Source: Natronorubrum halophilum
GTDB taxonomy: Archaea; Halobacteriota; Halobacteria; Halobacteriales; Natrialbaceae
Assembly: GCF_003670115.1 (NCBI RefSeq)
Contig: NZ_QQTY01000002.1
Coordinates: 930,001-994,000 of the forward strand
DNA length: 64,000 nt
Direction: 5' to 3'
Shown here piece by piece: positions 6,633 to 7,685 of the stretch (its first letter is position 1; every line of letters starts with the position of its first letter). Under the pieces are notes generated by a model that made no database searches, was not told where the DNA came from, and saw nothing but the letters and a program-made list of their open reading frames with translations. The translations under genes and the position numbers were made by a program.

Positions 6633-6672
6633 TTAGGCCGACCAAAACCTTTTTAGATTTAGGCCTACCTAA
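6633..6672 (+). promoter_or_regulatory. Two DtxR-like boxes flanking a TATA element
   Basis: TTAGGCCGACCAAA (6633-6646) and TTAGGCCTACCTAA (6659-6672) share 12 of 14 bases and are 26 bases apart. The second has perfect TTAGG/CCTAA arms, the core found in bacterial DtxR/IdeR sites. The TATA-like TTTTTAGA (6650-6657) lies between them, and the downstream ATG is 9 bases after the second box. A metal-dependent repressor bound here would cover both the TFB side and the start point. Metal regulation is inferred from the motif. Confidence 0.6.
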
Positions 6673-6681
6673 CTTCACCTG

Positions 6682-6849
6682 ATGGACGTACCCGCCCAAC
6701 GGGAGGATCCCGATTCCGACGAGACATTCGAGGAGCCGGCGGCGGTCGTGACCAGTCACGAGACCCGCCCCGGCAAGATCGTCTTTACCGAACACGACAA
6801 CACCGACGGCTGGATCGCGACCGATTTCGCCATCGATCTCGAGCGCTGA
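6682..6849 (+). CDS. 55-residue acidic protein (DUF7331-like), likely metal-regulated
   Basis: The product starts MDVPAQREDPDSDETFEE and ends DGWIATDFAIDLER. The block around IVFTEHDNTDGWIATD resembles a family of tiny haloarchaeal proteins that I recall as DUF7331; function unknown. No signal peptide, membrane helix or cysteine is seen. The ATG is 29 bases after a TATA-like element, so the message is likely leaderless. The promoter carries two DtxR-like boxes, and dpsA lies close by in convergent orientation, which suggests a part in iron (or manganese) response. Confidence 0.65.
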   Translation: MDVPAQREDPDSDETFEEPAAVVTSHETRPGKIVFTEHDNTDGWIATDFAIDLER

Positions 6850-7068: not shown

Positions 7069-7614
7069 TTACTTCGTCGCTTCCTCGAGCACCAGCGTAT
7101 CGTCCTCGAGGTAGTGTTCGAAGTGGTGGCCGTCTTCCTCGAGCGTGACGAGGATCTCGCGCAGGATTTCTGAGGTGGCGGGATCGCCCAGGTTCTCCGC
7201 GAGTTCGATGCTGTCGCGCATCGACTCGATGATGTCGCCGTACATCTCGAGGTCGTTCTGGAACATCGTTCGGGCGTCGTAGACGTCCTCACCCTCGAAC
7301 TCGACGGTCGCGCGGTTCTCTAGGTTCGTCGGGCCGGAGACGGGAACCCCGCCAAGCGCCTGCGCACGCTCGGCGACGTGGTCTGCGCCTTCCTCGACGT
7401 GTTCGTAGGCTTCCTCGAGGAACTCGTGGAGCGGCAGGAACTCCGCGCCCTCGACGACCCAGTGGTGCTTTTTGAGCTGATGGTACAGCACGTACGCGTT
7501 CGCCAGCTCCGTGTTCAGCGCGTCGACGATCTGTCCGGCCTTCTCTTGCTCGAGTCGAAGTTCGTTCCCCTCGACCTCATCGGCCTGTTGGCGGACGGTC
7601 TTTTGAGTGCTCAT
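7069..7614 (-). CDS. dpsA: DNA-protecting ferritin-like protein DpsA
   Basis: Dps proteins form dodecamers that oxidise and store iron and protect DNA from oxidative damage. The 181-residue product has the ferritin four-helix pattern: LNTELANAYVLYHQLKKHHWVVEGAEFLPLHEFLEEAYEHVEEGADHVAERAQALGG contains the ferroxidase ligands (His in KKHHW, His/Glu in LHEFLEE). The second half has the conserved DGHHFEHYLEDD end. A TATA-like CTTTAAGT lies about 30 bases upstream and a DtxR-like box lies further out, fitting iron-dependent control. Confidence 0.95.
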   Translation of the reverse strand: MSTQKTVRQQADEVEGNELRLEQEKAGQIVDALNTELANAYVLYHQLKKHHWVVEGAEFLPLHEFLEEAYEHVEEGADHVAERAQALGGVPVSGPTNLENRATVEFEGEDVYDARTMFQNDLEMYGDIIESMRDSIELAENLGDPATSEILREILVTLEEDGHHFEHYLEDDTLVLEEATK

Positions 7615-7671: not shown

Positions 7672-7685
7672 TTAGGCGAACCGAA
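7672..7685 (-). promoter_or_regulatory. DtxR-like box upstream of dpsA
   Basis: On the plus strand the site reads TTAGGCGAACCGAA, one base off the TTAGG-N4-CCTAA palindrome and matching the two boxes of the nearby 55-residue gene. It lies about 22 bases upstream of the dpsA TATA-like box rather than over it. An upstream position could allow activation as well as repression. Binding is inferred. Confidence 0.5.

Follow-up and report, generated by a model that had tools for sequence, protein, structure and literature searches.

Bacterioferritin-associated ferredoxin (Bfd) is a tiny protein that holds a 2Fe-2S cluster through cysteines and acts on bacterioferritin, and its gene lies beside a ferritin-type gene. 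In archaeal promoters, a regulator site located 5' of the TATA element suits activation, and sites over the BRE, the TATA element, and the start site suit repression. For the metal regulators IdeR and DtxR, a 14-bp consensus (TTAGGNNNNCCTAA) has been proposed, and bacterial sites usually have a 19-bp form that is bound by two dimers (available portion of PMC8464063). In haloarchaea, an iron network of the regulators Idr, SirR, and TroR has been described (excerpted text of PMC11349517).

The window, a 64-kb stretch of Natronorubrum halophilum DNA (64,000 nucleotides), contains a gene for a 55-residue DUF7331-like protein (6682..6849, plus strand) with two 14-bp boxes in its promoter. Box 1 (TTAGGCCGACCAAA, 6633-6646) and box 2 (TTAGGCCTACCTAA, 6659-6672) are identical at 12 of 14 positions and flank a TATA-like element (TTTTTAGA, 6650..6657, plus strand). 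Box 1 forms the upstream half of the double operator, with the right half of the box overlapping the probable BRE directly 5' of the TATA element. Box 2 is an exact DtxR/IdeR-type palindrome between the TATA element and the start codon. Because only 24 nt separate the TATA element from the start codon, the mRNA of this gene is probably leaderless. The convergent neighbor is dpsA (7069..7614, minus strand), which encodes a ferritin-like DpsA (PF00210, 112 bits; haloarchaeal DpsA model NF041388, 286 bits against a cut-off of 170). A third box (TTAGGCGAACCGAA, 7672..7685) is located at -71 to -58 relative to the dpsA start codon, 5' of a TATA-like CTTTAAG at -35. Relative to TTAGGNNNNCCTAA, box 2 has no mismatch, and box 1 and the dpsA box have one each. 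The double box had been pointed out in a sequence-only reading of this DNA, and the case for it is now stronger than that reading knew; the box it placed at dpsA is also present, in a weaker form.

Compared with the described systems, the likeness to DtxR/IdeR operators lies in the 14-bp consensus. In contrast to the bacterial 19-bp form, the window has two 14-bp boxes, spaced 26 bp apart, that bracket an archaeal TATA element. The Idr/SirR/TroR network involves the regulator family that is predicted for the window boxes and belongs to the same lineage. The window protein would resemble Bfd in role and not in chemistry: both are tiny proteins with a ferritin-type neighbor and expected induction at low iron. 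However, the window protein lacks cysteines for a 2Fe-2S cluster, and the cage here is a Dps.

Boxes 1, 2, and 3 are the only sites in the window with at most one mismatch. When the window was resampled 100 times with a first-order model, TTAGGNNNNCCNAA had a mean count of 0.03, and a pair within 40 bp never occurred. A two-mismatch scan of the window, taken alone, was not above chance (seven sites, 5.31 expected). Across the source genome (4.67 Mb), the exact box was found at 17 sites, compared with one for a reversed-pattern control. A chance origin of the boxes is rejected based on the resamples and these genome-wide counts. The boxes are predicted to be a DtxR-type metal operator, as supported by the comparisons among genomes.

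Siderophore-type genes are iron genes, and most of the exact boxes in the source genome precede genes whose translations read as siderophore-binding proteins, FecCD-type ABC transporter components, and a siderophore-type aminotransferase. Also judging from translations, a DtxR-family gene is preceded by two exact boxes and a ZIP-type transporter gene by a box with one mismatch. Several of the genome sites are box pairs 34-36 bp apart; the pair at the 55-codon gene is 26 bp apart. As a separate observation, exact boxes are found ahead of a gene of unassigned function (L028, C4:634086 and 634121) and a SAM methyltransferase-like gene (L027, C4:511664), and both genes are candidates for addition to the iron regulon. 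Several DtxR-family (PF01325) genes are present in the source genome. The best model for one of them, a 225-aa regulator, is MntR (NF047407, 212 bits, below the cut-off of 350), so control by manganese through an MntR- or SirR-like protein is conceivable. A Mn-dependent autorepressor is also what Halobacterium SirR is reported to be in the accessible part of a review (PMC3600143). Nevertheless, like boxes in the source genome mainly precede siderophore-type genes, and a manganese response at these boxes is considered quite unlikely. Comparison supports membership of the 55-residue gene in the iron regulon, and its control by iron through a DtxR-family protein presumed to bind the boxes is highly probable.

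The protein core (residues 21-55) is under purifying selection, with a mean pN/pS of 0.20 compared with 0.52 for residues 1-20 (43 sequences of 55 codons), which shows that the gene is coding. For the same reason, an erroneous open reading frame call or a non-coding RNA is unlikely. Among 135 diverse members, M1, N40, and W44 are common to all, and P30, V34, E37, D42, I45, D48, and V51 are nearly so. Cysteines are absent from the window protein, and the 135 members do not share a strictly conserved metal ligand that would support a mechanism. Only residues 21-55 are modeled fairly by AlphaFold (mean pLDDT 75, pTM 0.44), with three strands (23-29, 32-37, and 45-47) and confidence above 80 in the core only. 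A Foldseek search with this model gave no match at E <=0.001, the PDB has no sequence relatives up to E 1, and NCBIfam gave no match. The window protein scores 23 bits against Pfam PF24018 (DUF7331), which is under the 27-bit gathering cut-off, and 118 of the 135 clade members match PF24018 at E 0.01. Profile comparison with DUF7331 by hhalign gave an E value of 3e-5 and a probability of 73. Based on these matches, the small protein is related to DUF7331, although divergent.

DUF7331 as a whole is present in all 391 genomes of the class. The ordinary DUF7331 paralogue has the same length and core pattern (V-x-S-x-E...VVF...N...W) as the window protein but lacks both the DGWIATD motif and the iron box. 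None of 30 loci of this paralogue has a box (at most one mismatch) within 1.5 kb, and the idea that the box is a general feature of DUF7331 is rejected on these loci. Judging from the nearest named orthologues, the window is from a haloarchaeon close to Natrinema. Within the literature covered, no paper names DUF7331, and nothing relevant among the matches listed linked the small protein, convergent genes, haloarchaeal Dps, and iron starvation. The gene may have been listed earlier as a predicted target in primary work on the iron regulons of haloarchaea, for example in a survey of archaeal DtxR regulons (Leyn and Rodionov, 2015).

For the comparison among relatives, 190 distinct loci were compiled, including 125 best matches (one per family genome searched), 16 second copies, and 49 loci from outside the family, the latter being the best 49 among the matches listed from 364 genomes. 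Near-duplicates of other family loci and of the window locus (L038-L049 and L104) were excluded, as were weak second matches in two genomes (G186 and G182). The sequence-only reading had proposed looking for the boxes before orthologous genes, and they are present: every one of the 190 loci has, at a fixed place, a box that deviates at no more than one position, with both boxes in 133, only box 2 in 44, and only box 1 in 13. The spacing in the two-box loci is 26 bp in 127 and 25 bp in six. In 146 loci, box 1 is located between -46 and -50 relative to the start codon and differs from TTAGGNNNNCCRAA at one position or none. An exact box 2 is present between -17 and -28 in 176 loci, of which 150 have it at -23. 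An alignment of 13 upstream regions is conserved only from about -49 to -9 (ACCAAAACCyTTTTAGAwTTAGGnnnnCCTAA). The TATA element is kept as yTTTTAGA in all 13, and box 2 is variable in its center but keeps TTAGG and CCTAA.

The pattern extends to other families. A sample of 28 genomes picked by hand yielded 27 matches in 23 genomes, and 25 of these matches are boxed; the two box-free ones resemble the ordinary paralogue. Boxed copies are present in 10 of 11 family labels, the exception (f5) being represented by one genome with the ordinary paralogue only. Many relatives retain a single box or have a mismatch, which is why the double box at the exact 26-bp spacing is found in only 147 of 391 genomes. 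The reversed double-box pattern was absent among the matches listed for these 391 genomes. From the listed double-box matches, 20 sites in varied genomes were picked by hand. Sixteen have an asymmetric first box, and at all of them box 2 begins 21-23 nt ahead of the coding sequence of a 55-aa-type protein, making the asymmetric double box a clean marker of the iron regulon that led to the small gene at each such site. The other four have two full palindromes and lead to other genes. Separately, two fully palindromic double boxes with 26-bp spacing (L283 and L289) are located ahead of genes of approximately 390-400 aa that share VVPTIREYECVRSYVANA.

The neighborhood of the small gene points to DpsA. 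A DpsA gene is found within the fetched stretch (within 2 kb) at 162 of the 190 loci, and it is convergent and downstream in 158; the other 28 loci have no dps within that stretch. In the window, the small gene is also flanked by purM and an aldehyde dehydrogenase gene. Of the best 49 loci listed from outside the family, 43 have DpsA, but none has purM or the aldehyde dehydrogenase gene. DpsA is kept where the other neighbors are lost; therefore, the pairing is not passive synteny. Losses agree with this linkage. Of 19 genomes without a member of the boxed clade, 12 have no DpsA at E 1e-10, three have weak or partial matches, and four have a clear DpsA, whereas all six control genomes with the small protein have DpsA (Fisher p 0.001; 0.015 with weak matches included). 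The four genomes with a clear DpsA all belong to one genus (g37). The DpsA of this genus (L323-L326) is diverged (51-59% identical) and has neither a box nor a small partner gene nearby. Two DpsA genes are present in one genome of the genus (G024), and a boxed partner accompanies one of the two. Overall, a functional link between the small protein and DpsA is probable.

This linkage bears on two other explanations. The first is that transcription of the small gene during starvation enters the 3' end of dpsA as antisense and lowers DpsA, such that the protein matters little. The convergent arrangement is what such interference would need, and the stop-to-stop gap between the two genes starts from 0 nt with a median of 151. 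However, gaps reach 700-2400 nt in some loci, an amphi-Trp gene lies in between in Halobellus, and the protein core is under strong purifying selection, making this explanation quite improbable. The second is that the small protein is a general iron-sparing effector that acts on iron-using enzymes or an mRNA during starvation, the vicinity of dpsA being merely a shared iron locus. Its control resembles that of siderophore genes, and the protein is small and acidic, without a fold match. Nonetheless, the convergent linkage with dpsA persists across families where other neighbors are lost, and the small protein and DpsA are lost together; we regard such an effector as unlikely. In the sequence-only reading, the gene was proposed to be part of the iron response, for example as an iron-sparing regulator. 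The first part is supported by the DtxR-type boxes and the predicted place in the iron regulon. Searches of families, Foldseek, and the PDB linked the protein to none of the known families or folds that bind DNA or RNA, and the regulator role is merely conceivable. The iron store is the likelier target because of the convergent linkage and the co-loss with dpsA.

In the source genome, a second boxed copy (C2:53656-53772; L212 and L012) is located between a DtxR-family gene and an amphi-Trp-like gene with a second dps, and the adjoining DtxR-family gene has two boxes of its own. Three of six named records found by plasmid searches were examined, and an exact box is present in each, at -22 or -23. 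Halobellus limi has the regulator, the small gene (DV707_RS18670), the amphi-Trp gene, and dpsA in one locus, and Natrinema versiforme has an unannotated small gene flanked by the regulator and dpsA. In Haladaptatus halobius, the regulator and the small gene adjoin iron ABC transporter genes. The strongest rival to a role at DpsA is regulator feedback, in which the small protein binds a DtxR-family protein, as an anti-repressor or a co-repressor, and adjusts the entire iron regulon. A DtxR-family gene is present in the stretch for 13 of the 16 second copies examined, two primary loci (L164 and L166) adjoin a homologue 80% identical to the 225-aa regulator of the genome, and the Halobellus and Haladaptatus loci place the regulator with the small gene. 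However, most primary copies are found with DpsA and without a DtxR gene nearby, and the closest regulator type is in the stretch at only 16 of the 190 loci. We consider feedback to be improbable.

The upstream regions of dps genes also contain the box, although less regularly. With at most two mismatches within 120 nt, it was found in 89 of 156 regions, mostly near -70, compared with 4.2% in shuffles; the other 67 are box-free at this threshold. Several of the box-free dps promoters have another loose palindrome (TTTC...GAAA) at about -70. The reading that we prefer, with a probability of roughly 0.5, is that the small protein is an iron-repressed, starvation-induced member of the DUF7331 superfamily and a dedicated partner of DpsA, where binding of the regulator, the direction of regulation, and the action on DpsA are all deduced. 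The clear DpsA without a partner in four genomes, the 28 loci with no dps in the fetched stretch, and the box-free dps upstream regions count against it. With iron present, a metal-loaded DtxR-family regulator on both boxes would block the BRE, the TATA element, and the start site. As iron falls, the block would be lifted, and a leaderless mRNA of the small gene would be made. At dpsA, where the box lies 5' of the TATA element, a regulator of this kind or a different one would serve as an activator. The two genes would answer iron in opposite ways because of the block at one promoter and the activation at the other. In Halobacterium, DpsA is down-regulated under iron deficiency, which fits such opposite regulation, as far as the accessible text of the review PMC3600143 goes. 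The acidic, unstructured N-terminus of the product precedes a conserved, cysteine-free beta core of 35 residues, and the protein may act on DpsA by stopping iron entry, favoring release, or marking the cage for turnover.

These patterns suggest that, once iron is exhausted, the small protein assists in closing or emptying the iron store of the cell. Direct antagonism of the DpsA store is a tentative proposal, with the action on DpsA drawn from gene linkage. The role of a single small gene can be tested in any tractable species that carries it, with the promoter predicting when it is on and the neighbor predicting its target. Somewhat more speculatively, the protein may be a class-wide, cysteine-free partner of DpsA that is induced by iron starvation, attaches to the Dps cage, and either opens or closes the store, as a Bfd-like factor that evolved separately inside DUF7331. 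If this is true, a function analogous to that of Bfd would have arisen independently within DUF7331.
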